Of a DNA stretch of 48,363 nucleotides, positions 1 to 13,454 are shown in pieces (positions within the stretch are counted from its first letter, which is position 1; each line of letters begins with the position of its first letter). The notes under the pieces were generated by a model. That model did no database searches, was not told where the DNA came from, and saw only the letters and a program-made list of their open reading frames with translations. Location of the stretch: positions 1 through 48,363 of the forward strand of contig DASXVO010000074.1 in the NCBI GenBank assembly GCA_036504215.1. Reading direction: 5' to 3'. Both the position numbers and the translations under genes were made by a program. This stretch comes from Vicinamibacterales bacterium. GTDB taxonomy: Bacteria > Acidobacteriota > Vicinamibacteria > Vicinamibacterales > Fen-181.

Positions 1-1313
1 AGGTAGTCGGCCAGTATCCGGTGCGGGCTCGGTCCGGACAGGTCGCTGAAGATACGGACGGCTCGGACGGTGTCCGCCACGTTGCTCGCGCCCCACGCCA
101 CGAAGACGGCGAGCGCGATCCCCCGCAGCCGACGGGACGGCTCGCGGACCATGAACGCCGCCAGACAGGCGATCGGCATCAGAAGCGGAAGATGAAGATA
201 TCGCACCATGGGCGGGACGCCCGTGGTGAGCATGCACGCGAGCGTGTAGGACGCCAGGCCGAAGGCGCCGACCAGCATGAGGAACGCCGCCACGTCGGTC
301 CGGCCGTCGTCCCTGCGCCACGTCCAGGCCAGCCTGGCGAGCATCACCGACAACGTGGGGAACAGAACCCAGCCGAGGGCCGGAGAGCCGACGATCTTCG
401 CTCCTCCCGTGTAGAGCCCGATCCGGTAGGTTCCGAAGAGGACAGGCAGACAATCGGTGAACAGGTACACGATGCGCGGCCAGAGATCGCCAGCGCGGAA
501 GCAGGTGTTGACCGCCAGCATCCGGACCTGCATGAAGAGCGACGTGTTGTTCAGGTGGAGATTCAGGTCGTCGATGGCCAGCCAGACGAGGCCGAATCCA
601 GCCGCCATCCGGAGTGCCCTGGTGAGCGACGATCGGCGCCAGAGCGTGCCGGCCGCCGCCTCGACAATCACGAGCGCTGGCAGCACAAACAACGTGAACT
701 CGCGGTGCAGGTAGGCGAGCGCGAACATGGCGCCGAAGGCGAACGGCTTGTTCCGGAGCGCCCACAGGGTCAGCACGTAGAAGTACAGTTCGCCGGCGCC
801 ACAGCCCTGTCCGTCGAGCAGGCTGCCCGCGATGGCGGGAGAAGCCGCGATGAACGGGAGCGCGGCTATCAGCGCCACGGCCGGCCGAAGCCGAAGTTCC
901 CGCCCGAGCGTCCGCATGAGGAACAACGCGGCCGCCACGTTCAGCAGCATGAGCGGAAATCGCAGCGCCGTCACGGACGGTCGGGCCAGCCAGAAGAACG
1001 GCGCAACGATCCAGGCCTGCACGCCGAGCATGTAGCTCTGGCCGTAGAAGAAGAGCGGGAATGCGCGGAACTCGCTCAAGTGCTTCGCCATCAGGCCGAT
1101 GACTGCCTGGTCCGAGTCGAAGCGTGTGCTCTCCCACAGCACCCACGGCGCGGCACGCAAGGCCACCAGGGCCGAGGTGATCAGCACGGCGGCCCACCAC
1201 TCGCGCCGACCGCCGTCCAGGATGGCGAGCACACGACAGCGGACAGCCAGCCATTCGACGAGGGACGCCTCAGACGACGACTGCGAATTGGCGGAGACGA
1301 CGTTAGTCTTCAT
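1..1313 (-). CDS. GT-C-like polytopic membrane glycosyltransferase, 3' end outside window
   Basis: The minus strand is open from an ATG at 1313 to the window edge, about 437 codons, so the C-terminus is missing. After a hydrophilic N-terminus of about 35 residues the product is a string of hydrophobic segments. The first extracytoplasmic loop reads TRFDSDQAVIGLMAKHL, the Asp-rich first loop typical of GT-C enzymes that use lipid-linked sugars; it is followed by FPLFFYGQSYMLG. An in-frame ATG at 1352 also exists, but it overlaps a TGCTAGCAT extended -10 (1351-1358), so 1313 is preferred. No good ribosome site precedes either start. The long plus-strand open frame over this stretch is an antisense shadow. 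Donor and acceptor are unknown; the neighbours suggest surface-glycan work. Confidence 0.75.
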   Translation of the reverse strand, partial: MKTNVVSANSQSSSEASLVEWLAVRCRVLAILDGGRREWWAAVLITSALVALRAAPWVLWESTRFDSDQAVIGLMAKHLSEFRAFPLFFYGQSYMLGVQAWIVAPFFWLARPSVTALRFPLMLLNVAAALFLMRTLGRELRLRPAVALIAALPFIAASPAIAGSLLDGQGCGAGELYFYVLTLWALRNKPFAFGAMFALAYLHREFTLFVLPALVIVEAAAGTLWRRSSLTRALRMAAGFGLVWLAIDDLNLHLNNTSLFMQVRMLAVNTCFRAGDLWPRIVYLFTDCLPVLFGTYRIGLYTGGAKIVGSPALGWVLFPTLSVMLARLAWTWRRDDGRTDVAAFLMLVGAFGLASYTLACMLTTGVPPMVRYLHLPLLMPIACLAAFMVREPSRRLRGIALAVFVAWGASNVADTVRAVRIFSDLSGPSPHRILADY

Positions 1314-1463
1314 GGCCGTGGAGTGGGCGTGCAGCCGGTGACGGAAGGCCATGCTAGCACGCTTCAGTCACCTCGAGGCGCGCCGTCGCTCCTCGTCACG
1401 ATCTGGCGCCGCGTGTCCGCGTCGTTGTTCCCCGGCGGGGCAATCAGCTATCATTCCGGCCCA

Positions 1464-3503
1464 ATGGACCGTCGGTCAGCGCCCGGATCCCGTGCAGTAC
1501 CCGTCCTCTGGGTCATCCTGCTCTACGCGCTGCTCGAGGTCGCATTCGCGTACCCGCTCTCGATGCATCCCTGGGACACCGCGCTGCGCATCGGATCCGA
1601 CACGGATCTGTACACCTGGACGCTGGCCTGGGACGCCCACGCCTTCCTGCACCGCCCGCTCTCGATCTTCGACGCGAACATCTTCTACCCTGCGCCAAAC
1701 ACGCTCGCCTTCTCGGAGAACCTGATCGGGGCCGCGTTCATCTCGGCACCCGTTCAGTGGATCACCGGCAATCCAGTCCTGGCGTTGAACTTCGCGGCAC
1801 TGAGCTCGGGCGTGCTCTCCGGCCTCGGTGGCTACGTGCTGGGGCGGGCTCTTGGAATGAGCCGGCTGGCCGCCTTCCTGTCGGGCCTCATCTACGCCTT
1901 CGGGCCGCCGCGGTTCCTCCGCCTCGGACAACTCCATCTGACCACGGTCCAGTGGATTCCATTCGGCCTCGCGTCGCTGCACCGATACCTGGACGGCGGG
2001 CGCCGCCGCGATCTCTGGATGGCCGTCGGGTTCTTCACGCTGCAGGTGCTGTCGAGCGGCCATGGCGCGGCGTTCATGGCAGTCGCCTACGTGGCCCTCC
2101 TCATCTACCGTGTCGCTCTCGGAGACGAGGTTGCGCCGTTCAGGCGGCTGCGCGACTTCGGCATGCCCGGCCTCCTGCTGGTACTACCCATCGTCTTTGC
2201 CGTGCTGCCGTATCGGAGCGTCCAGCAGGAGGGGCTTCGACGGACGCTGGACGACTGGACGGCCACCTTCGAGAGCCTGCTCGCTTCCCCGTCACATCTG
2301 CACCAGTACCTCATCTCGCTCGTGCCGGGCCTGAGAATCAACCAGCGAGGGAAGGCGTACCTCTTCCCCGGCGTGCTGCCTGTCCTGCTCGCGGCAATCG
2401 CGCTGTGGCCACGCTGGCGTCGGGCACCAGTCGAGGCGATCGTGGCCGGGACCACGAGTGTTGTGGCGGTGCGTGCCAGTTGGCGTGAGCGGTGCCAACG
2501 CGGGATGGCGGTCGTGCTCGACCTCATCGCGCTCGTCAGCCTGGTAACGGGCGTCTTTGTCGCGATCGGTGGGCCGCTCAGGATCCGGTGGGCGGGCGCC
2601 CCGGTCTTCTCGGCGGCCGGGCCGTGGCGGCTGTGGCTGGCGGCGTCCGCGGCCCTCGGAATCCGTCTCGGCATCCGCCGATGGGTCCCGCTCGACCCGC
2701 ACCAACCCGTGGTCGTGATGAAGCGCCTCCAGGTGATCTGGCGTGCCGTGGTGCTTCGAGTGCAGGCGTGGCGGGCCACGCATCGACAGTCACCGTCCCT
2801 CTTCTACGGCCTGCTCGCACTCATCGCCTTTCTGATGACCACCCCCCGGCCGTTGACGCTGTGGCCCTACGTCTACTCCTGGCCCGGCTTCAACTTCATC
2901 CGGGTTCCGTCGCGGTTTGCGATGCTGGGGCTGATGTGCGTCGGCGTGCTGGCGGGGCTCGGGTTCGACAGGTTGTTCGCCCGGCGCCGGCGGGCCTGGC
3001 GCGCCGTCGCCGCCGGGCTGGCCGCGGGCGTGCTCGTGGCCGAGTATGCGACGATGCCGCTCACGAACACGTTGCCGTATACGATCGATATCCCCGCGAT
3101 CGACCAGTGGCTCGACACCAGGCCCAAGCCCTTCTCGGTGGCCGAAGTGCCGGTCCTGCCGCACGTGCGTGAGTCCGACGCGGCCCGGTACGAGAAGCGG
3201 CAGTCGGTCTACATGACGCACTCGATGGCCCACTGGCAGAAGACGATCCACGGGTCCAGCGGTTTTCGGCTGCTGCTCCACGACCGGCTCAACGCCGAGC
3301 TCAGCACGTTCCCAAACCGGACCGCGCTCGAGAGCCTGGTCCAAATCCACGTCACCTACCTCGTGGTTCACACCGATCTCTACCAGACCGGCGAATGGGC
3401 CCAAGTGGAGCCGCGCTTCGCCGAGTTTGCGGAATGGATGACGCTCGAGCACGTCGAAGGGGCCGGCCGCGTGTATTCCCTGCATCGCCCGCGGCAGGAG
3501 TAG
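1464..3503 (+). CDS. polytopic membrane protein, GT-C-like paralogue family A, copy 1
   Basis: This 679-residue multi-spanning protein starts with hydrophobic VLWVILLYALLEVAFAYPLSMHP. Its first outer loop holds IGSDTDLYTWTLAWDAHAF and FDANIFYPAPNTLAFSENL, with Asp residues placed as in GT-C transferases. Later landmarks are LQVLSSGHGAAFM, PGFNFIRVPSRFAMLGL and HWQKTIHGSSGFR. The C-terminal part after the last helix is soluble. The gene at 6800-9004 is a clear full-length paralogue and 3549-5213 a more distant one. ATG 1464 is chosen because it follows TATCAT (1449-1454) by nine bases, consistent with a leaderless message, and because the hydrophobic N-terminus begins there. No database family is recognised with certainty; extracytoplasmic sugar transfer is an inference. 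Confidence 0.8.
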   Translation: MDRRSAPGSRAVPVLWVILLYALLEVAFAYPLSMHPWDTALRIGSDTDLYTWTLAWDAHAFLHRPLSIFDANIFYPAPNTLAFSENLIGAAFISAPVQWITGNPVLALNFAALSSGVLSGLGGYVLGRALGMSRLAAFLSGLIYAFGPPRFLRLGQLHLTTVQWIPFGLASLHRYLDGGRRRDLWMAVGFFTLQVLSSGHGAAFMAVAYVALLIYRVALGDEVAPFRRLRDFGMPGLLLVLPIVFAVLPYRSVQQEGLRRTLDDWTATFESLLASPSHLHQYLISLVPGLRINQRGKAYLFPGVLPVLLAAIALWPRWRRAPVEAIVAGTTSVVAVRASWRERCQRGMAVVLDLIALVSLVTGVFVAIGGPLRIRWAGAPVFSAAGPWRLWLAASAALGIRLGIRRWVPLDPHQPVVVMKRLQVIWRAVVLRVQAWRATHRQSPSLFYGLLALIAFLMTTPRPLTLWPYVYSWPGFNFIRVPSRFAMLGLMCVGVLAGLGFDRLFARRRRAWRAVAAGLAAGVLVAEYATMPLTNTLPYTIDIPAIDQWLDTRPKPFSVAEVPVLPHVRESDAARYEKRQSVYMTHSMAHWQKTIHGSSGFRLLLHDRLNAELSTFPNRTALESLVQIHVTYLVVHTDLYQTGEWAQVEPRFAEFAEWMTLEHVEGAGRVYSLHRPRQE

Positions 3504-3548
3504 GGCAGCCGTGTGTCGGCCGAGGAGTCGGTGGGTCGAGAGGAGCAC

Positions 3549-5213
3549 ATGTTCAACTGGTCGTCATCCACGGCTTCGGTGACCGGGGAGGGCGCGGCGC
3601 GGCCCGGCGCGCGCCGGATCGCGTGGGGCCGGGAACTCGTGACGCTGGCGCTGTTCGTGTTGCTGGCCGTGGCGCACACCTGGCCCCTGGCCAGCGCGCC
3701 GAATACGTGGTGTCGCAACGACAATGGGGACGCCGGCCTCAACGAGTGGGCACTCGCGTGGGTGGCGCACCAGGTGGTCCGGGATCCGGTGCACCTGTTC
3801 GACGCGAACATCTTCTATCCCGAACGACGCACGCTGGCGTTCTCCGAGCATCTGCTGCCGGAGGCCGCGCTCGTGGCTCCGCTGCTGTGGGGCGGTGGGT
3901 CGCCAGTGCTCGCCCACAACGTTGCCCTGCTGGCGGGATTCGTGTTGACGGGCTGGGCGATGTGCTTCGTCGTCCGGCGGTGGACTGGCAGCCTGGCGGC
4001 GGGGCTCGTGGCGGGGTCGCTCGCGGCCTTCAACGCGCACACTCTGACGCGCCTGGCAAATCTCCAGGCGCAGCACGTCCAGTACCTGCCCCTGGCCCTT
4101 CTGGCGCTCGATCGGCTGCTCGACTCCCCGCGCGTACGACACGCCCTGGCCCTGGCCGCGTACGTGACGCTGCAGGTCCTGTCGTCCAGCTACTTCCTGC
4201 TCTTCACCGTGGTGACCGTCGCCGCGTCCAGCCTCGTTCGACCCGGCGACTGGCTTGGCGCCCGCTTTCGACGAGTGGCTCCCCTGCTGCTGCTTGCCGT
4301 GCTCGTCGCGGTGCTCGCGCTCCTGCCGGTGATCGCCACCTATTGGCTGGTGCGCCAGGAGCAGGGGTTCGTGCGCACGATGAAGGACGTTCGAACCTAC
4401 TCCGCCATCTGGACCGACTACCTCGCGACCGGGGCGCTCGTGCACTGGGGCTGGAGCGGGCGCTTCTTCCGGGGGAACGGTTACTTTCAGGGATTCACGG
4501 CGCTTGGCCTGGCCGGGCTGTGCCTGGTGACGGGAACCGCGCTGAAGGACCGCCGGGCCAGGATGTGCCTGGCCGCCGCGCTCGCGGCCTTCGTGCTGTC
4601 GTTCGGCTCGCAGTTGCCGTTCTACGAGTTCCTCTTCAATCACGTCCCGCTATTCGATACGGTCCGGTCGGTCGATCGCTTCGCGCAGGTGACGATCCTC
4701 GGCGTGGCCGCGCTCGCAGGCTTCGGCGTCGCGTGGTGTCTGAGGAAGGCAACCAGTCGGCGCCAGGCCCTGATCCTGGCGTTCGTGTTGCTGGCGGCGG
4801 TCAACATCGAGGCGTGGCGAGGGCCGCTGACCTATACGAGGTTCGAGGGGCTTCCGCGGGTTCTCAGGAGCCTGGCCGGGGCACCTGGCGCCGTGGTCGT
4901 CTACTTTCCCTACTACCACCGCGGCGGCGAGGCCGGCCTCAATTCCCGATTCATGTTGTGGTCCACGCTGAACTGGCGCCCGATGCTGAACGGGTACTCG
5001 GGATTCATGCCCGCCAGCTTCCACCGGACCGCGGATGCCGTGGGTCGGTTCCCGGACGCCGCAAGCCTCGGCTACCTGCAGAGCGTCGGCGTCACGCACA
5101 TCGTGGTGGACGGGGCCAATATGAACAAGCCCCAATTCCACCAAGTGACCGAGGCCGAGGGATTGAAGCTGTGGGCGAGCGACGGGACGGTCTTCATCTA
5201 CACGATTCGCTGA
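3549..5213 (+). CDS. polytopic membrane protein, GT-C-like paralogue family A, copy 2 (divergent)
   Basis: This 554-residue multi-spanning protein lies 45 bp after its paralogue and was probably co-transcribed with it. Shared landmarks are NDNGDAGLNEWALAWVAHQV in the first loop, FDANIFYPERRTLAFSEHLL, LQVLSSSYFLLFT, VRSVDRFAQV and NWRPMLNGYSGF near the C-terminus. It is about 125 residues shorter than copy 1 because the long middle cytoplasmic segment is absent. ATG 3549 has an AGGAG five bases upstream; an in-frame GTG at 3513 has no ribosome site. The repeated AWxxH plus FDANIxYP pattern argues for a shared substrate class. Function is inferred only from the fold-like features. Confidence 0.78.
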   Translation: MFNWSSSTASVTGEGAARPGARRIAWGRELVTLALFVLLAVAHTWPLASAPNTWCRNDNGDAGLNEWALAWVAHQVVRDPVHLFDANIFYPERRTLAFSEHLLPEAALVAPLLWGGGSPVLAHNVALLAGFVLTGWAMCFVVRRWTGSLAAGLVAGSLAAFNAHTLTRLANLQAQHVQYLPLALLALDRLLDSPRVRHALALAAYVTLQVLSSSYFLLFTVVTVAASSLVRPGDWLGARFRRVAPLLLLAVLVAVLALLPVIATYWLVRQEQGFVRTMKDVRTYSAIWTDYLATGALVHWGWSGRFFRGNGYFQGFTALGLAGLCLVTGTALKDRRARMCLAAALAAFVLSFGSQLPFYEFLFNHVPLFDTVRSVDRFAQVTILGVAALAGFGVAWCLRKATSRRQALILAFVLLAAVNIEAWRGPLTYTRFEGLPRVLRSLAGAPGAVVVYFPYYHRGGEAGLNSRFMLWSTLNWRPMLNGYSGFMPASFHRTADAVGRFPDAASLGYLQSVGVTHIVVDGANMNKPQFHQVTEAEGLKLWASDGTVFIYTIR

Positions 5214-5252
5214 TGACCCGGTCCGACGGCGCCCGTTTCGCCCGCGTCCGGT

Positions 5253-6674
5253 TCAGGCGGCGCCGGTCGAATCGCGCCCGGTCGCGCGCACCGGCCACGA
5301 ACGCGCGAGGGCTATGCCCGCGACCAGGATGAGGGCGACGGTCAGCATGGCCGCGAGGTTCGGGACGTACGTCCAGTAGCTCGAAAAATCCCAGAAGTAG
5401 AACGAGGGGAGCAGGCCGCGGATTCCCAGCGGGAAGAGGCTGTCCCGCTCGGCGATCTTCTCCGACAGGTAGGGGAACAGCACATCCGGCGTTCTGAGCC
5501 ATCGGACGGCGAGCGCCGCCTGGTAGACCAGCGCCACGACCGTCGCGGCCGGCAGGTATCGGCGCAGACGCGGGTATGCCGCCAGGCCGGTCACCATCGG
5601 CACGGCCCAGAGCCACATCGCGGGCCAGGCAAAGCGCGACGTTGGCGCGCCGCCGCCGTACCGCGCGAGCTCGAGGGAATTCGGTCCGATCAGGGACAGG
5701 TAGAGCAGTCCCCAAAACGCCGCCTGCGCCGGTTGGCGGCGGAAGAAGAGGGGCAGGAACAGGACGCCGGCGAGTAACAGCGGATTCCGCACGAACATCC
5801 CCTGGCTCTGATCGAGATGCAGGCCAAGGAAGATCTCCGCGGCCCTCGAAGGCACCGACGCCACCTCCGCGATGAAGCGGCCGCCAGTGAGGTTGTCGTA
5901 GGCCCAGACGTTGAACGCCACCAGTCCGAGCGGACCGACCACGAGGCACCCGGCGCTCATGAGCGCCATTCGTGCGGTCGCGGGTCTTGCCGTCCGGGAC
6001 GCGTGCCACGCGACGCCCAGCAGGCCGGCCAGGAAGACTCCAGACGTGGCGACGAACTTCACGTTGAGCCAGGTGAGCAGCCCCATCGCGAGGCCCGCTC
6101 CGGCCCATGCCAGCGGCCTGGCGTCATCCTCCTCGCGGTTCAGCAGCCACAGCGCGAGCGCCGTCGCGAACACGCCCGCCGGCAGGTCGGGAAAGATCCG
6201 CGATCCGCCGAAGCACGCCGGGCTGCACACGACGACTCCAAGCGTCAGCCAGGCGGCGTCGGCGGGCGTCAGCCGGGCGCGGGTCCACCGGACGATCGAC
6301 CACGGCAGCAGCGCCATCAGGAGGCACAGCCAGATCCTGACAGCGGCTTGGCCCTGGAGCCAGAAGGGGAGCGCGATCAGGATGGACATCCCGGGCGTAT
6401 GGAACGGCATCCACCGATGCTGGACGAAGACCATGTGCGGCGGGACCGGCCCGAAGATGGCGGCGGTCTGCGCATCGCGCGCATAGGCGGGGCGGAGGTC
6501 GAAGCTGGCGTCGGTGACCAGGCTGTCGGCCATGATCAGGTAGTGGGGCTCGTCGCCGTTGGTGCCCGCCTTCCCGATGGTCAGCGCGCAGACGATCAGC
6601 GCGAGGATGGTCGGCAAGAGCACGACGGCCAGGAGCGTCCGGCGCGATCGGGCGGTCAGTGTCGGGAGCGTCAT
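5253..6674 (-). CDS. polytopic membrane protein with GDEPHY loop, GT-C/PMT-like
   Basis: The 473-residue product begins with one hydrophobic helix (LLAVVLLPTILALIVCAL) followed by a loop TNGDEPHYLIMADSL. An acidic G-D-E-P-H-Y motif in the first outer loop is characteristic of bacterial mannosyl/arabinosyl-transferase-like GT-C proteins. About ten further hydrophobic segments follow, with RFAWPAMWLWAVP late in the chain. It is not a close relative of its two plus-strand neighbours. The gene converges with 3549-5213 and diverges from 6800-9004. TATACT (6684-6689) ends nine bases before the ATG, suggesting a leaderless message. The N-terminal loop makes a lipid-linked sugar transferase plausible; the substrate is unknown. 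Confidence 0.75.
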   Translation of the reverse strand: MTLPTLTARSRRTLLAVVLLPTILALIVCALTIGKAGTNGDEPHYLIMADSLVTDASFDLRPAYARDAQTAAIFGPVPPHMVFVQHRWMPFHTPGMSILIALPFWLQGQAAVRIWLCLLMALLPWSIVRWTRARLTPADAAWLTLGVVVCSPACFGGSRIFPDLPAGVFATALALWLLNREEDDARPLAWAGAGLAMGLLTWLNVKFVATSGVFLAGLLGVAWHASRTARPATARMALMSAGCLVVGPLGLVAFNVWAYDNLTGGRFIAEVASVPSRAAEIFLGLHLDQSQGMFVRNPLLLAGVLFLPLFFRRQPAQAAFWGLLYLSLIGPNSLELARYGGGAPTSRFAWPAMWLWAVPMVTGLAAYPRLRRYLPAATVVALVYQAALAVRWLRTPDVLFPYLSEKIAERDSLFPLGIRGLLPSFYFWDFSSYWTYVPNLAAMLTVALILVAGIALARSWPVRATGRDSTGAA

Positions 6675-6799
6675 CGGTCGGAGAGTATACCCCAGCAGCC
6701 CGGCGGCCGACGCCGCGTGCCGGGCGGCGTGCCGGGCGGCGTCTGGCGCGGGCGGCTCCGCGCGGAAGGGGCGGGACCACAGTGCTACAATCGGGCCCC

Positions 6800-9004
6800 G
6801 TGGGTCGTGACCTTGGCGCTCCGTCCGTCCGGATCTCTCTCTTGTCCCGCGAGACGTGGCTGGTCGTGCTCTTGTACGTGGCGCTCACGCTGCTTCTGGC
6901 GTATCCGATCTCGATGCACCCCTCGACGCTCAGATTCCCGACGGGGCCGGACGGGGACCTGGGCATGTATCTCCTGGGATGGAATACCCACGCGTTCCTC
7001 GACAAGCCCTGGGCGATCTTCGACGCGAACATCTACTATCCGCAGCGCCTGACGCTCGCGTACGGCGAGAACGTGATCGGAATCTCGCTGTTCGCCGCGC
7101 CGGTCATCTGGATCACCGACGATCTCCTGCTGGCCGCCAACTTCGTGGCCCTGCTGTCGTGCGTCCTGTGCGGGCTCGGGGCGTACGTGCTCGCCCGGCG
7201 CCTCGGACTCAGCGTCGCGGCAGCCGTGCTGTGCGGGGTCATCTTCGAGTGCTCGCCGCCACGGTTCTTCCGCGTGACCCAGATGAACCTGTCGTCCGTG
7301 CAGTGGATCCCGTTCGCGTTGGCTTCACTGCACGCCTACCTCGACGAAGGGCGGAAGCGGGACCTTCGCGTTGCGGCGGGGTTCTTCTCGCTGCAGGCGC
7401 TCTCCAGCGGCCACGGTGCGGTGTTCATGAGCGTGACGCTCGCCCTGTTCGGGGCGTACCGCATTCTGCTCGGCGAACCCCTCCGCCTGTTCCGGCGCGT
7501 GCGTGACCTCGGGGTGACGGGCGTCCTGCTGCTCGCACCGGCCGTCCTGGTGTTCCTGCCCTACCTGGCGGTGCAGGACGACGTTGGCCTGAGGCGCGGC
7601 CTGGGGAGCTGGACCCAGGACCTCACGTCGTTTCTCGCGTCGCCGTCGCACGTGCACGCCTTCCTGTTGTCGGCTGTCGGCGCGGCTCGCGTCAACCAAA
7701 CCGCCCAAGCGTACCTGTTCCCAGGGTATGTGCCGCTTCTGCTCGCGCTGGTTGCGCTGGCCTGGCCCCGGCTCGGGCGTTCCCGGCGCGAGACGCCGCC
7801 ACTGGCCATCGATCGCGGGCCCACCGGGCCGGGCGACGGGTCCGCCGATCCGGTCGTTGCCGATGTGGATGGCGCGACGAGACCCGAGCGCGGCGTCGGC
7901 ACGCCGGGCGCATGGACGCGCGTCGCCCTCCTCGCCGACCTCGGCGCGGTGGCGTCTGCAGTACTCGGCCTCGTGGTGATCTACGCGGGGTCGATCAGGT
8001 GGAAGGTGGGACCCGTCGTGATCTTGACGGCCCGGGACGCGTTTCGCCCCTGGATGTTCTTCGCGATCTGCGTGATCGCCAGGCTGGCCATTCTCCGGCG
8101 CGCGCCCCTCCATGCCCGACGCCGCCTGTTCACATGGTGGTCGGCGGTGGCCCCCCTGGCCCGGGGAGGCTGGAAGGCGTGGCGACCCGCGATGGCGAGC
8201 GTCGTGCGACTGCCGGCGGTGACCGTTCGCCTCGCCCGGCTCGCATGGGTCCGGCTGGGGCCGGTGCGGCGATGGGCGAGCGTGCAGAGAACGGACGCGA
8301 CCGGCTTCTACGGCGTGCTCACCGCGGTGATGTTTGGACTCGCGCTCGGACCACCCTACGGACTCTGGCGGTACGTGTACTCGTTGCCCGGGTTCAACTT
8401 CATTCGCGTGTCATCCCGCTTCTCGATTGTCCTCGTGCTCGGCCTGGCGGTCCTCGCGGCAATTGGCTTCGACAGGCTCACGGCCGGCCGAACGCGGAGG
8501 ATACGCACGCGGCTCGCGGTGATCGTCGGGGCGCTCCTGGTCGCGGAGTTTGCAGCCATGCCCATGCGCGCCGTCCCGAGCAACCTCGAGGTACCCGCCA
8601 TCGATCGCTGGCTCGACACGAAGGCGAAGCCGTTCGTCATCGCCGAACTGCCGTTGCCGAGCTACGACTACGCGGGGGCCTTCGAGCGACAGCAGGTCGC
8701 CTACATGATTCACTCGACGGCGCACTGGCAGAAGACCATTCACGGGTATAGCGGCTGGCGGACTGCGCAGCACATGGACCTGTACAAGAGCCTGGAAGGT
8801 TTTCCAGACGAGACGAGCCTGCGGAACCTGGCGGAGATCGGCGTCACCGATCTCGTGGTCCACACCGACCGGTATCCGTCCACCGAGTGGCCGAAGATCG
8901 AGGAACGGATCGGGCACTTCCAGGCCTGGCTCACGCTCGAGCACGTCGAGGGGGGTGGGCGAGTCTACTCGCTGCGGGCGCCGCGCGCCGCCACGTCCCG
9001 CTGA
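6800..9004 (+). CDS. polytopic membrane protein, GT-C-like paralogue family A, copy 3
   Basis: The 734-residue product matches the protein at 1464-3503 along its whole length: LVVLLYVALTLLLAYPISMHP, a first loop PTGPDGDLGMYLLGWNTHAF, FDANIYYPQRLTLAYGENV, LQALSSGHGAVFM, PGFNFIRVSSRFSIV and HWQKTIHGYSGWR. It is longer because of a Gly/Pro/Arg-rich middle segment around residues 325-375. The start is GTG 6800, eight bases after an extended -10 TGCTACAAT; an in-frame TTG at 6842 is the alternative and sits closer to the first helix. The high similarity of copies 1 and 3, with two unrelated or divergent membrane genes between, points to duplication inside the locus. An extracytoplasmic glycosyl-transfer role is inferred. 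Confidence 0.8.
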   Translation: MGRDLGAPSVRISLLSRETWLVVLLYVALTLLLAYPISMHPSTLRFPTGPDGDLGMYLLGWNTHAFLDKPWAIFDANIYYPQRLTLAYGENVIGISLFAAPVIWITDDLLLAANFVALLSCVLCGLGAYVLARRLGLSVAAAVLCGVIFECSPPRFFRVTQMNLSSVQWIPFALASLHAYLDEGRKRDLRVAAGFFSLQALSSGHGAVFMSVTLALFGAYRILLGEPLRLFRRVRDLGVTGVLLLAPAVLVFLPYLAVQDDVGLRRGLGSWTQDLTSFLASPSHVHAFLLSAVGAARVNQTAQAYLFPGYVPLLLALVALAWPRLGRSRRETPPLAIDRGPTGPGDGSADPVVADVDGATRPERGVGTPGAWTRVALLADLGAVASAVLGLVVIYAGSIRWKVGPVVILTARDAFRPWMFFAICVIARLAILRRAPLHARRRLFTWWSAVAPLARGGWKAWRPAMASVVRLPAVTVRLARLAWVRLGPVRRWASVQRTDATGFYGVLTAVMFGLALGPPYGLWRYVYSLPGFNFIRVSSRFSIVLVLGLAVLAAIGFDRLTAGRTRRIRTRLAVIVGALLVAEFAAMPMRAVPSNLEVPAIDRWLDTKAKPFVIAELPLPSYDYAGAFERQQVAYMIHSTAHWQKTIHGYSGWRTAQHMDLYKSLEGFPDETSLRNLAEIGVTDLVVHTDRYPSTEWPKIEERIGHFQAWLTLEHVEGGGRVYSLRAPRAATSR

Positions 9005-9013
9005 CGGGTGAGA

Positions 9014-10069
9014 TCAGTACTTCAGCGCCAGCTCGATGGCGTCCAGCTTGTGCCGTGAGATCAACCCGTACCACTCGGCGACGCTGATGCTCCGCGTATT
9101 GCGGATGTGTCGCCGCCTCCTGAGCATCGTCGGCAGGCGCCAGAGCGCGGCGAGGCGAGCCTGGATCAACAGGACGAAGAGCCGCATCACCGAGTACTCC
9201 TTCACGAACTGCGAGGACAGCCCCTGGTGCGTGTAGGCGGCGTACGCCTGCATGGCGTAGCGGTTCATCGTGAAGAGCGGCGATGCCAGGACGAGAAAGC
9301 GCGGCATCCACTTCCACAGGCAGTAGATGCGGTTGCGCTCGACATGGAAGGCCTTGAAGACCGAGTAGTTGCCGGCTGTCGCCGACTTCTTGTGCCGCAC
9401 CCGCGCGGTCGGGACGTACCAGCACTTCCATCCCGCGAGCTGTCCCCGCACGCCGAGATCGAGGTCCTCGAGGTAGCAGAAGAAGTCCTCGTCGAAGTCC
9501 CCGATTTGGTCGAGCATGGCCTTTCGAAGCGCACACGCGCACCCGTGAGGGGCCAGCACCTCTTCGGCGCGATCGTATTGTCCCTGGTCCTTCTCGTCCC
9601 ATCCTCTCGACCGGCAGACGCCATCCGGATAGACCAGCAGCCCCACCGAGTCGAAGAAGATCGGCTGGTCCGCCCGTACGACCCGACACGCGAGCTGGCC
9701 GACATCCGGTCTTTCCGCGGCGAACGCCATCAACTCCGCGATGACATCGGCGTCGCAGATGGCGTCTGAATTCAGCAGGAAGATCCACTCGCCCGTTGCC
9801 ACGCGGAAGCCCGCGTTGTTGCCGGCGGCGAACCCGAGATTCCCGGCGTTCCTCACGACCACCAGGCGGTCACCGAATCGGTCGATCGCGTGATCGACCG
9901 ACGCGTCGGTCGATCCATTGTCCACGAGGACGACCTCGAGTGCCGGCCACGTCTGGGCGAAGAGGGAGGCGAGTGCGTCGAGGAGCATCTCCCCGCCGTT
10001 CCAGTTGACGACGATGGCGCTGACGAGTGGGGTTGCCGCAGGGAGTGAGCGGTCGGCCGACGTGGGCAT
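9014..10069 (-). CDS. family 2 glycosyltransferase, rhamnosyltransferase-like
   Basis: This 351-residue protein has a GT-A nucleotide-binding start LVSAIVVNWNGGEMLLDAL, VDNGSTD, a donor/metal motif LLNSDA near residue 115 and EDLDLGVR in the acceptor/base region; these mark a WcaE/RfbN-type GT2 enzyme that adds sugars to cell-surface polysaccharide. The C-terminal third has basic and hydrophobic stretches that could bind membrane. It follows the methyltransferase at 10079-10705 by nine bases on the same strand and is probably translated from the same message. It ends nine bases from the stop of the convergent membrane gene 6800-9004. Donor sugar cannot be read from the sequence. Confidence 0.88.
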   Translation of the reverse strand: MPTSADRSLPAATPLVSAIVVNWNGGEMLLDALASLFAQTWPALEVVLVDNGSTDASVDHAIDRFGDRLVVVRNAGNLGFAAGNNAGFRVATGEWIFLLNSDAICDADVIAELMAFAAERPDVGQLACRVVRADQPIFFDSVGLLVYPDGVCRSRGWDEKDQGQYDRAEEVLAPHGCACALRKAMLDQIGDFDEDFFCYLEDLDLGVRGQLAGWKCWYVPTARVRHKKSATAGNYSVFKAFHVERNRIYCLWKWMPRFLVLASPLFTMNRYAMQAYAAYTHQGLSSQFVKEYSVMRLFVLLIQARLAALWRLPTMLRRRRHIRNTRSISVAEWYGLISRHKLDAIELALKY

Positions 10070-10078
10070 GGTGGTGGC

Positions 10079-10705
10079 TCAATTCGCCGCGGTTCGTGGG
10101 CCGTCTGCCGACGCGGCCGGCTTCGTGCTCACCACGACGAATTCGTTGTGGGCGAAGAACCTGCCGGCCCATCGCGGAAGCGGAAAGGAGAACGACCGGT
10201 CCGGTCGGCAGCCCACGCATGCCGCAATACGAGCGAGTTTCCCGAAGTCCACGAACTCCACGTGTGTGGGATCGCTCGCCTGCCCGGCTTCTTGCGGGGT
10301 GATCAGGATGACCTGGCCGTTGTCTCGGACGAGACCGGCGTAGCGGGCGAGTAGCGAGACGGTCTCGTCCACTCCCAGGTGTTCCGCCACGTGGGCCAGC
10401 AGGAGAGAATCGAAACGTCCGGGTGCGTGGTAATCGACGGAGCGCTCGAACTCGTCCGGCGTGAAGACCACGAACCCCCGATCGCGGGCGACGCGCAGAC
10501 AGTGCTCGTTGACGTCGATGCCCACCCCGTTTCCGCCAAGGTGGATGAGGTTACGGCCGATGCCGCAACCGATATCGAGGGTGAAGCCCGGGTCGAGTCG
10601 CCGGAGGTTCCAGCGGTAGGGCGCCTGGACATCCAGCCACTGCTTCCATCTCGCGGTCTGGGCACGCACCAGCCGTTCAGCGTACAACCTGCTCTGAACG
10701 TCCAT
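10079..10705 (-). CDS. class I SAM-dependent methyltransferase
   Basis: The product (208 residues from ATG 10705) carries motif I TLDIGCGIGRNLIHLG, the acidic end of strand beta2 in GVGIDVNEHCL, and FDSLLLAHVAEHLG, as in methyltransferases linked to polysaccharide biosynthesis. Two ATGs lie just upstream (10714 and 10717) but overlap a TATGAT hexamer (10713-10718); transcription from it would begin at or next to ATG 10705, so that start is preferred. The following GT2 gene begins nine bases after its stop. Together they may decorate and extend a surface glycan. The substrate is unknown. Confidence 0.82.
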   Translation of the reverse strand: MDVQSRLYAERLVRAQTARWKQWLDVQAPYRWNLRRLDPGFTLDIGCGIGRNLIHLGGNGVGIDVNEHCLRVARDRGFVVFTPDEFERSVDYHAPGRFDSLLLAHVAEHLGVDETVSLLARYAGLVRDNGQVILITPQEAGQASDPTHVEFVDFGKLARIAACVGCRPDRSFSFPLPRWAGRFFAHNEFVVVSTKPAASADGPRTAAN

Positions 10706-10764
10706 CCGGGCCATCATACCCGAGGTGGCGGCCGATCCGGCACCTGGCCGTCCGAGCGCACCGG

Positions 10765-11592
10765 CTAGAACCTGGCGACTCCCATGATGTACGGTCCACT
10801 CAGCTTGAACGAGCCCGTATCCGTCTTCACGCGGTAGGAGACGTCCAGCGAGCGATAGCCGCCCTGCACGCCGACGTTGTTCGTGAAGTTCAACGTCCCG
10901 TAGATATCGAAGTCCACGTAGCGGCCATCGTACCGATTGGCCTTGTCCACGCTGGTCGGCAGCTTGAAGCCGGTGACCTCGCCGGTGATGGCGACGTTCG
11001 CGACGGGGTAGACGCGGACGATGCCGCCGATCGTCGGGATGGGCGCGCGCACCCGGGCGTACTCGGAATCCACCGGGCTCGCGAGGTTGACCTCGACGTC
11101 CGTGTACTTCGCCTCGAGGATCAGGCCAACGAAGCCGCGGTCCCGATAGATGAAGTCGTACTCGTAGCCGAACCGCATCGCCTTCCAGTCGAGGGACGAA
11201 TTCACCGGCATGCCGACGTTGTACGCGATGCCGTTGAACACGATCCGCCGCTTGAGGATGGCCTCGGCACTGTAGTTGATCGGGATGTAGCCGAACCGGA
11301 ACTTGTGCTTCTTGAACGGCCGCAGCACCAGCCTGAATTCCTTGAACGTCGTCTTGCTCATGCCCAGATCGTTGACCCCGTCGATCTGATCGCCGATGAT
11401 GCCCAGGGATTCACTCGACACCAGCATTTCCGGGGTCGGACTGATCAGGCCGACGCCGAACTCCACGTGGTAGGTCTCGCCCGTGGCCGGTTCGTTGATC
11501 GGGGCTTTCCGGTACTGTGCGCTGGCCGACGACGCGCCGAATACGACGGCCACGACCGAGAGGAACACGAGAACACGGGTTATCAGGCGCAT
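10765..11592 (-). CDS. outer-membrane beta-barrel protein
   Basis: This 275-residue protein has a clear signal peptide, RLITRVLVFLSVVAVVFG then SASAQ, cleaved near residue 26. The mature part alternates polar and aromatic/hydrophobic residues in strand-sized blocks (FEFRLV-type, FRFGYIPI, MRFGYEYDF, GGYRSLDVSYRV) and ends in a terminal aromatic, GVARF, as outer-membrane barrels do for BAM recognition. No enzymatic motif is visible. An AAGGA site lies shortly before ATG 11592. It follows cstA by 50 bases on the same strand, so it may share that transcript, but a functional link is not evident. It is probably a porin-like or structural barrel protein of unknown role. Confidence 0.75.
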   Translation of the reverse strand: MRLITRVLVFLSVVAVVFGASSASAQYRKAPINEPATGETYHVEFGVGLISPTPEMLVSSESLGIIGDQIDGVNDLGMSKTTFKEFRLVLRPFKKHKFRFGYIPINYSAEAILKRRIVFNGIAYNVGMPVNSSLDWKAMRFGYEYDFIYRDRGFVGLILEAKYTDVEVNLASPVDSEYARVRAPIPTIGGIVRVYPVANVAITGEVTGFKLPTSVDKANRYDGRYVDFDIYGTLNFTNNVGVQGGYRSLDVSYRVKTDTGSFKLSGPYIMGVARF

Positions 11593-11642: not shown

Positions 11643-13454
11643 TTATCGGCCGGAGCCCAGTCGGACTGTAGCCCCTCGACCGACCTGAATCCACCGGCGT
11701 ACCGACGAGACGAGGATGATGATGACGCACGCCATCATGACGACCGTGAGAACCGAGTTCAGGTAGCCCTGCACGTGCATCGCGGGGTCGGTTCCGACAG
11801 CCATCGGCCAGAAGTTGTCCCTCACGCTCATCCATCCGGCGGTCAGCGTCGTCGTCGACAGGAAGACGAGCGGGACGACCGTGACCCAGCAGTAGCGCGC
11901 ACGGCCGAGATTGATCAGGATGGTCGTGCCGATGAGGAGGGCGATCACCGCCAGGAGCTGGTTGCTGATGCCAAACATCGGCCAGATCGTGCCGATGCTG
12001 CCGGTCCAGATGAAGTAGCCCCATCCGAGGACGACCAGCCCGGTGGAGATCACCGTGCCGGGCATCCAGTCGGTTCGGGCGAACGGCTTGTAGAAGCGGC
12101 CGAAGAACTCCTGCACGAGGAAGCGGGCCACCCGCGTGCCGGCGTCGATGGTCGTGAGGATGAAGAGCGCCTCGAACATGATGGCGAAGTGGTACCAGTA
12201 GTCCATCAGGCCCTTCATGCCGGGGAGACCGCTGAAGATCTGGGCCATGCCGACCGCCAGCGACACCGCGCCGCCCGTCCGACCCGTGACGGTCTCGCCG
12301 ACCGCCTGTTCGAGCGCGTGGAGGTTGACCGCCGGGATGCCGAGCGACGCGAAGACCGCGGGCGGCACGTTGATGGCGAAGTAGTCGCCGGGATAGAGCG
12401 ACGTGGCGGCCAGCAGCGCCACGATCCCCACGAGGCCCTCGATGAGCATGGCGCCGTAGCCGATCGGCCGGATGTCGGATTCCTTGTCGATCATCTTCGG
12501 CGTGGTCCCCGAGCCGATGAGGGCGTGGAATCCCGAGATGGCGCCGCAGGCAATCGTGATGAAGACGAAGGGGAACAGCGGCCCCTTGATGATCGGCCCG
12601 CCGCCCGCGACAAACCGCGTGACGGCCGGCATGTGCAGTTCCGGGTTGACGATCATCACGCCAAAGACCAGCAGCGCGATGGTGCCGATCTTCATGAACG
12701 AGCTCAGGTAGTCGCGGGGCGCGAGCAGCATCCAGACCGGCAACACGGAGGCGACGAAGCCGTAGACGGCCATCGCGACGATGAGTTGATTGTGCGAGAG
12801 GAGGAAGATCTGCCCGAAGGCCGACGCGGCGAGCGGTTTGCCGAAGGCCACGGCGCACAGCAGGCCGATGACGCCGATCACGGTCGCTTCCGCGATCTTC
12901 CCCTTGCGGAAACGGTACATGTAGAAGCCCATGAACAGGGCGAGCGGGATGGTCGAGCCGATCGTGAAGGTGCCCCAGGCGCTCTCGCTGAGGGCGTTGA
13001 CGACGACGAGGCCGAGGCCCGCCAGCGCGATGATGACGATGAAGAGGACGGCCACGCCGGCGGTGATGCCGGCGACGGTGCCGATCTCCTCGTGCGCGAT
13101 CTCGGCCAGCGAACGACCGCCGCGCCGGGTGGACGCCCAGAGGATGATCAGGTCGTGCACGGCGCCGGCGAGGACGACGCCGGTGACGAGCCAGATGAGT
13201 CCGGGCGCGTAGCCGAATTGTGCCGCGAGCACGGGACCAACCAGCGGACCGGCTCCGGTGATGGCTGCGAAGTGATGGCCGAACAGCACCCAGCGGGTCG
13301 TCGGGTAGTAGTTGTGACCGTCGTATTGAGTGTGCGACGGCGTCGTGCGAGTGTCGTCCAGCACGAGCAGGCGCGCCGCGATGAAGCCGCTGTAGAACCG
13401 GTAGGCGATGACGAGAATGCAGAGAATGGGAACGATGAGATACAGCGCATGCAT
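11643..13454 (-). CDS. cstA: carbon starvation protein CstA, peptide/pyruvate-type transporter
   Basis: The 603-residue polytopic protein follows the CstA pattern: N-terminal [18 protein letters not shown], then [29 protein letters not shown]-type core ([16 protein letters not shown]), and later [15 protein letters not shown] with [17 protein letters not shown]. CstA proteins import peptides or pyruvate across the inner membrane when carbon is scarce. The length is at the short end of the family, which reaches about 700 residues. TAAAAT (13461-13466) ends six bases before the ATG, so the message may be leaderless. It diverges from the ABC exporter genes starting at 13528, with 73 bp between. 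The beta-barrel gene follows on the same strand. Confidence 0.93.

Follow-up and report, generated by a model that had tools for sequence, protein, structure and literature searches.

A divergent family of putative GT-C glycosyltransferases at a conserved chromosomal site in the Vicinamibacterales

What kind of enzyme is encoded by a cluster of related membrane-protein genes at the end of an acidobacterial contig, and what is the locus for? Acidobacteriota are an abundant phylum whose members are hard to grow, and to our knowledge little is known of their envelope glycans. The window considered here is a stretch of 48,363 nucleotides from a Vicinamibacterales bacterium (GTDB lineage Fen-181; assembly GCA_036504215.1, contig DASXVO010000074.1), which makes up contig C74 of a 90-contig, 5.9-Mb genome. 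An earlier note, written from the letters alone, had singled out three of its genes, here C1, C2 and C3, as an unnamed paralogous family that might be an undescribed class of lipid-linked sugar transferase acting on a surface glycan. The locus raises three issues: (i) the relationship and fold of the three proteins, (ii) their place among known glycosyltransferases, and (iii) the extent of the locus and its counterparts in other genomes.

The open reading frames (ORFs) do exist at 1464, 3549 and 6800. C1 (1464..3503, plus strand, 679 aa) and C3 (about 6800..9004, plus strand; its ORF is open from 6659, and its structure model was built from 6833) are collinear and share 44.7% identity over 703 aligned columns (523 bits), whereas the shorter C2 (3549..5213, plus strand, 554 aa) aligns with C1 over 283 columns (36.0%, 99.8 bits) and with C3 over 260 (31.5%, 99.8 bits). 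The end-to-end likeness of C1 and C3 and the divergence of C2 are thus borne out. When C1 was shuffled 60 times and compared with C2, the best score was 25.8 bits, so the C1-C2 similarity, far above that value, is not due to chance; judged from their sequences, the three are true paralogues. They do not form one recent family: C2 belongs to a different supported clade from C1 and C3, which rules out a recent triplication. Of the landmarks that had been noted, FDANI[FY]YP is present in all three and the AWxxH-like stretch reads AWDAH, AWVAH and GWNTH in C1-C3, but the late motif, expected as NGYSG or HGYSG, is HGSSG in C1, NGYSG in C2 and HGYSG in C3. The Asp of FDANI varies across the family, with D in 52/74 rows. 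The invariant residue, found in 74/74 rows, is an earlier Asp: D46 in C1, D61 in C2 and D40 in C3, counted from 6833.

The predicted fold is that of GT-C glycosyltransferases, in agreement with the earlier proposal. AlphaFold (AF2) models were obtained for C2 (predicted local distance difference test, pLDDT, 94.6; predicted template modelling score, pTM, 0.93) and C3 (pLDDT 86.0, pTM 0.81). The 23 Foldseek matches to C2 at E<=0.001 comprise STT3 of the oligosaccharyltransferase (OST), alone or in translocon complexes, DPY19, AglB, AftA, PglB, ArnT, ALG12 and Pmt4. VIA-align lists 50 matches (Z 8.5-24.0), all to GT-C enzymes or to chains of the glycosylphosphatidylinositol (GPI) transamidase that are related to them in fold, with Z values of 24.0 for STT3, 21.8 for AftD, 20.7 for PglB, 20.1 for Pmt4, 19.8 for AftA and 19.5 for ArnT. 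C3 matches the same enzyme families, and both models match over their full length. A search of a viral fold library gave a single match at E<=0.001 (TM-score 0.33, unnamed), and profile and single-sequence searches of the sequences of solved structures returned chance matches or none.

The models have 11 predicted membrane helices, or 13 if the C3 hairpin is counted; the transmembrane (TM) numbers given to them are our own reading. C2 begins with TM1 (19-43), followed by a first juxtamembrane helix (JM1, 60-78), a short helix, a second juxtamembrane helix (JM2, 103-114) and TM2 (119-146), and runs on to TM11 (404-422), after which a periplasmic alpha/beta domain of about 130 residues is predicted. 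A pair of juxtamembrane helices in the first extracytoplasmic loop, which joins TM1 to TM2, is the mark of the GT-C_A core. Lys/Arg density is 0.15-0.29 in the five predicted inside loops and the N-terminus, and 0.00-0.10 in the five predicted outside loops and the C-terminal domain. Helix order and the positive-inside charge support an extracytoplasmic position of the conserved Asp. Neither of the results that the earlier note had named as refuting its proposal, folds unlike GT-C or conserved Asp residues on the cytoplasmic side, was obtained.

Four residues, Asp61, Glu/Asp100, Arg373 and Arg377 in C2 numbering, are kept together in 74/74 aligned rows and in both family copies of a second contig of this genome, C87; a further copy on contig C35 has D for E100. 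These residues were placed by sequence position and helix limits rather than on superposed template coordinates. D61 is the second residue of JM1, E100 directly precedes JM2, and R373/R377 flank the start of TM10 (375-399). According to a paper on AftB, an essential Asp at the tip of JM1 is common to all GT-CA enzymes (PMC12041299). A paper on TMTC enzymes describes, for OST structures, a contact between the lipid phosphate and an Arg that directly precedes TM10, and calls E84 of ArnT metal-near (PMC7801869). Glu100 may be the counterpart of that ArnT residue. The codons for the putative catalytic Asp, the acidic residue and the Arg pair lie at 1599-1601, 1716-1718 (E85), 2901-2903 and 2913-2915 in C1; at 3729-3731, 3846-3848 (E100), 4665-4667 and 4677-4679 in C2; and at 6950-6952, 7067-7069 (E), 8405-8407 and 8417-8419 in C3. 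On the grounds of the GT-C fold and of hallmarks kept in 74/74 rows on the extracytoplasmic side, C1-C3 are very probably active GT-C_A glycosyltransferases that use polyprenyl-linked sugars.

Among described families the three stand apart in sequence. No Pfam or NCBIfam model matches C1-C3 beyond chance. The family is unnamed, and the literature searched, which left out most subscription papers, holds no description of it that we found. Two GT-C families are within reach through relatives. One is PF10131 (PTPS_related), a GT-C clan member whose function is listed as unknown (PMC7801869). The other is PF09586 (YfhO), a GT-C enzyme of lipoteichoic and wall teichoic acid (LTA/WTA) glycosylation in Bacillus, Staphylococcus and Listeria (PMC8035078). 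C1-C3 match neither at E<=1 and reach neither curated cut-off, but a C87 paralogue from the same genome passes PF10131 (34.0 bits; cut-off 26.4) and bridges it to the family. A PF10131 search of 40 genomes gave ten matches, at least eight of which coincide with family matches, and two relatives of C1/C3 type match below the cut-off (E 5.8e-4 and 1.5e-4). In the same genomes PF09586 finds N-terminal matches at six family places, one (G017) over the cut-off and five below; most of its over-cut-off matches are other genes and cover only the last 80 or so positions of the model. YfhO is alike in enzyme kind by fold class; C1-C3 differ in having no model match and no linked GtrA. Since paralogues pass the PF10131 and PF09586 cut-offs, the family sits in the GT-C clan beside these two, and it is best described as a large divergent branch of the GT-C superfamily rather than a separate invention or a new enzyme class. 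Of the proposed undescribed class, the GT-C fold stands and the novelty of class does not.

The mycobacterial arabinofuranosyltransferase AftD (6w98) matches C2 over its full length (Z 21.8, rmsd 4.5, 471 residues) and has the highest identity to it among the matches listed (16%), whereas STT3 has the highest Z. At 1312 residues the AftD chain is far longer, and C1-C3 are without its C-terminal sugar-binding domains. The likeness to the AftD catalytic domain is one of fold; a profile search against PDB sequences gave no match. Weak CBM_AftD matches occur in 3/21 scanned family members, and a C-terminal F5/8 type C (discoidin-like, PF00754) domain occurs in 5/21 (L017, L019, L022, L023 and L025). 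These F5/8 domains, absent from C1-C3, resemble the sugar-binding modules that other GT-C enzymes carry according to one paper (PMC11127046).

How might such enzymes work? C1-C3 and their two C87 relatives would be inner-membrane GT-C_A glycosyltransferases. An ArnC/DPM-like synthase encoded elsewhere would make the donor, a sugar on polyprenyl phosphate, in the cytoplasm; some carrier would flip it, and it would enter the enzyme from the membrane. The Arg pair would hold its phosphate, the Asp would activate acceptor or donor, and the sugar would pass in the periplasm to an envelope glycan, either finished or still growing. The several paralogues at the locus may differ in the sugar that each adds or in the linkage that each forms. 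Confidence falls along this chain: that C1-C3 are GT-C glycosyltransferases is highly probable, a monosaccharide polyprenyl-phosphate donor is probable, and an envelope-glycan acceptor, proposed because of the GT2 and methyltransferase genes at the locus and the variability of the site, is about an even bet. Given the glycan genes beside them, action on a surface glycan is plausible.

The reading as a whole, computational in all its support, is given a probability of about 0.75, and several points weigh against it. The GT-C fold fixes no donor, acceptor or linkage, and the highest Z values belong to oligosaccharyltransferases. Some proteins of this fold, such as PIG-U, are inactive, as stated in the TMTC paper (PMC7801869). 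Two ArnC-like proteins are encoded in the genome (E 1.7e-62 and 1.3e-45, below the model's own cut-off), but these two strongest genes lie on other contigs, and neither donor synthase nor flippase is linked to the locus. No match to the GtrA flippase family is found in the window's genome, and a GtrA-dependent unit there was rejected; the relatives have 21 matches in 19/40 genomes, and on comparison by eye none of these lies within 100 kb, on the same contig, of the family matches listed. Finally, no Pfam family recurs in more than 3/70 or 2/67 of the 137 neighbour genes scanned (of 163 picked; the 26 left out are mostly short), and a fixed operon partner was rejected on this count.

Other readings draw on parts of the same evidence. 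The top structural scores, held by STT3 and PglB/AglB chains, and the Arg before TM10, which in C1-C3 is the one described for OST structures, would suit an oligosaccharyltransferase that moves a whole oligosaccharide from polyprenyl pyrophosphate to protein or glycan. Like ArnT, the STT3/PglB enzymes also share with the family the TM1-JM1-JM2-TM2 core and the Asp at the JM1 tip. Identity to ArnT and STT3/PglB is about 9-14%, and the C-terminal domain (the one of about 130 residues in the family) is different. Against this reading, the AftD rmsd is below that of STT3 for both models, with a higher identity in the case of C2. STT3 has WWD as its signature motif, and none was found by reading the C1-C3 translations. 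Six members in one genome, moreover, would suit monosaccharide transferases better, and transfer of whole oligosaccharides is unlikely. A three-component system of the YfhO/Gtr type, with a dedicated undecaprenyl-phosphate (Und-P)-sugar synthase and a GtrA flippase decorating a finished polymer, could draw on the relatives that pass the YfhO or PTPS_related cut-offs and on the two ArnC-like proteins; set against the missing GtrA and the lack of a conserved partner gene, it is quite unlikely. Lastly, U chains of the GPI transamidase are among the fold matches of C2 (Z 11-12), as would be expected of a non-catalytic, PIG-U-like scaffold or lipid-binding protein, but the four hallmark residues are retained throughout the 74 rows and the C87 copies, with the single E100-to-D change in the C35 paralogue, which makes this very improbable. 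Monosaccharide transfer by active GT-C_A enzymes is the preferred reading in what follows.

The family is widespread. With C1 as query, matches are found in 35/40 near relatives. The search across Acidobacteriota that the earlier note had called for was made with a 74-row profile, which matches at E<=0.001 in 97/199 sampled genomes of the phylum, the weakest being only loosely related. Another 76 loci were fetched from named public contigs, mostly of Acidobacteriota; the other record titles name Nitrospirae, Nitrospinae, Deltaproteobacteria, Chloroflexota or Anaerolineae, Thermodesulfobacteriota, candidate phyla, WOR-3, the PVC group and a few more, although some titles of metagenome-assembled genomes seem wrong. 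Genes in fetched DNA were called by our own scoring of ORFs and of GC content at third codon positions (GC3). Six members belong to the window's genome, out of six candidates scored: the window contains three, C87 two and C35 one. In a quick LG+G4 tree without mixture, C1 and C3 fall in a gamma clade of 13 rows (SH-aLRT 100), C2 in a beta clade of 19 (99), and the two C87 copies in an alpha clade of 18 (100), which places C2 and C1/C3 in separate and, as far as the tree can tell, ancient clades. The six nearest genomes (G001-G006) match C1 at 2.3e-36 or weaker, or not at all, whereas seven genomes from other families of the order (G032, G023, G024, G020, G030, G036 and G026) match at 1.6e-91 or better. 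Gamma copies thus seem absent from the nearest relatives, as read from search scores in assemblies that for 4/6 are 77-91% complete, and transfer and loss are indistinguishable.

Members also differ by an insert between TM8 and TM9, carried by C1 (2406..2801, plus strand) and C3 (7760..8305, plus strand) and absent from C2. In the C3 model the insert consists of two helices joined by a beta hairpin, then more helices, with low confidence at both edges; in C1 it occupies the place of that hairpin. More than 60 residues separate TM8 and TM9 in 31/74 aligned members. At E<=0.001 a profile of 15 gamma inserts also matches inserts outside gamma in L085, L083, L080, L073 (two) and L098; a further two match at E 0.016-0.03 and another two at about 0.5, and 6/16 non-gamma inserts have no match at E<=1. 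Among the called genes the hairpin profile matched none from outside the family. On a quick mixture-model tree built without the insert columns, the insert state changes at least 13 times, six of the changes being forced by well-supported branches. Repeated loss of an old hairpin would be the simplest reading, and some of the other inserts may be unrelated to the gamma hairpin.

The locus that the earlier note had placed at positions 1-9004 extends beyond base 1. The window and C87 begin with 14 bases that are reverse complements of each other, an end match for which the chance expectation over all contig ends is about 1e-4. When the contigs are joined, the truncated gene A (3..1352, minus strand) reads through to a stop at C87 position 252, giving 529 aa with a new C-terminus that by eye matches that of the L131 relative. 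C74 and C87 evidently adjoin through this 14-bp overlap, with A split between them. The joined order is Slt, a 458-aa gene, alpha, alpha, A, C1, C2, B, C3, GT2, a methyltransferase (MT), an outer-membrane protein (OMP) and CstA, so that the locus holds five family members together with A and B.

The flanks of this locus recur. Markers were sought in 33 loci: the window, L030, L094 and 30 regions chosen for holding family members, often in tandem, which makes the counts those of a non-random sample. In 10/33 loci (L140, L144, L146, L148, L149, L150, L153, L154, L159 and L163) the family genes stand between Slt and either OMP or CstA, and these loci span ten genomes, seven genera and six families of the order; five loci (the window, the C87 locus L138, L030, L094 and L156) have one-sided markers and 18 have none. 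In most two-sided loci a single alpha gene is paired with a single beta gene. The window's genus has a doubled alpha, and C2, the beta gene in the window, lies inside the stretch that differs. Between the family genes and OMP, LA917 is present in 8/10 two-sided loci and a methyltransferase, MT148, in three; LA917 is a long membrane protein and a distant relative of B. The two genomes of the same genus that have the site (L153 and L159) carry LA917; in its place the window's genome has a seven-gene cassette, A-C1-C2-B-C3-GT2-MT. By analogy with O-antigen loci we infer cassette exchange at a conserved site, with LA917 replaced by the cassette. A conserved site with a variable middle fits surface-glycan diversification.

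Two further possibilities were tried and rejected. That LA917 moved elsewhere in the window's genome finds only a weak partial match on contig C28 (E 8.1e-5), and a foreign base composition of the cassette is not seen (67.8% GC in 1-10717, 67.4% in 13455-48363). The C28 region (G000:C28:100258-105391) places this weak LA917-like match about 4 kb from the genome's strongest ArnC-like (Und-P-sugar synthase) gene; it is possible that the region is the donor locus.

The remaining genes bear out most of the neighbourhood that the earlier note had described, namely five GT-C-like genes with a GT2 enzyme and a methyltransferase. Among the five, C2 and C3 qualify by fold and C1 by homology. B (5253..6674, minus strand) does so by weak matches: to NCBIfam LA3751_2_3 ('putative glycosyltransferase'; E 1.4e-8) and PMT_2 (E 8.6e-4), both below cut-off, making it a distant relative of LA_3751/LA_3752-type putative glycosyltransferases and LA917. 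For A, which has no match in a Pfam search, the sole GT-C indication is an FD[AS]DQA-like first loop conserved across seven aligned sequences. Antisense to A and on into C1 runs a 1166-aa open frame (3-3503, plus strand), the first part of which resembles a shadow frame, of the sort seen in high-GC DNA, rather than a gene. Pfam confirms the GT2 glycosyltransferase (9014..10069, minus strand; PF00535, E 5.7e-25) and the S-adenosylmethionine (SAM)-dependent methyltransferase MT (10079..10717, minus strand; PF08242, E 2.5e-8). The right anchors of the syntenic block are OMP (10765..11592, minus strand, starting at the first plausible Met in our reading), a YfaZ-like protein with 58.8% identity to its L030 relative and a relative in L146 that matches YfaZ below cut-off (E 3.4e-4), and CstA (11643..13454, minus strand), with 79% identity to the L030 gene and a Pfam CstA match on the L146 homologue.

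The kind of enzyme described here is known, and GT-C chemistry is unchanged by the finding; the family is undescribed, and so are its target and its swapped cassette of genes. New are the extent of the locus into C87, the replacement of LA917 by the cassette as read above, and the recurrent changes of the TM8-TM9 insert. A bolder proposal, which we hold tentatively and with the odds against it, is that alpha, beta and gamma form a new CAZy-level GT-C family and that the Slt-OMP-CstA site is the order's surface-glycan diversity locus, with the TM8-TM9 hairpin as a module. If this is true, conserved flanks and an alpha-beta pair surround a middle exchanged between species, and the hairpin is an exchangeable module that tunes the choice of acceptor or partner. 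The conserved site was unexpected, and site and cassette replacement merit a survey. A family so widespread, often multicopy and, for C1-C3, without a model would be a substantial element of unassigned envelope biology, and a conserved site with an exchangeable middle would be a concrete place to seek glycan variation between species.

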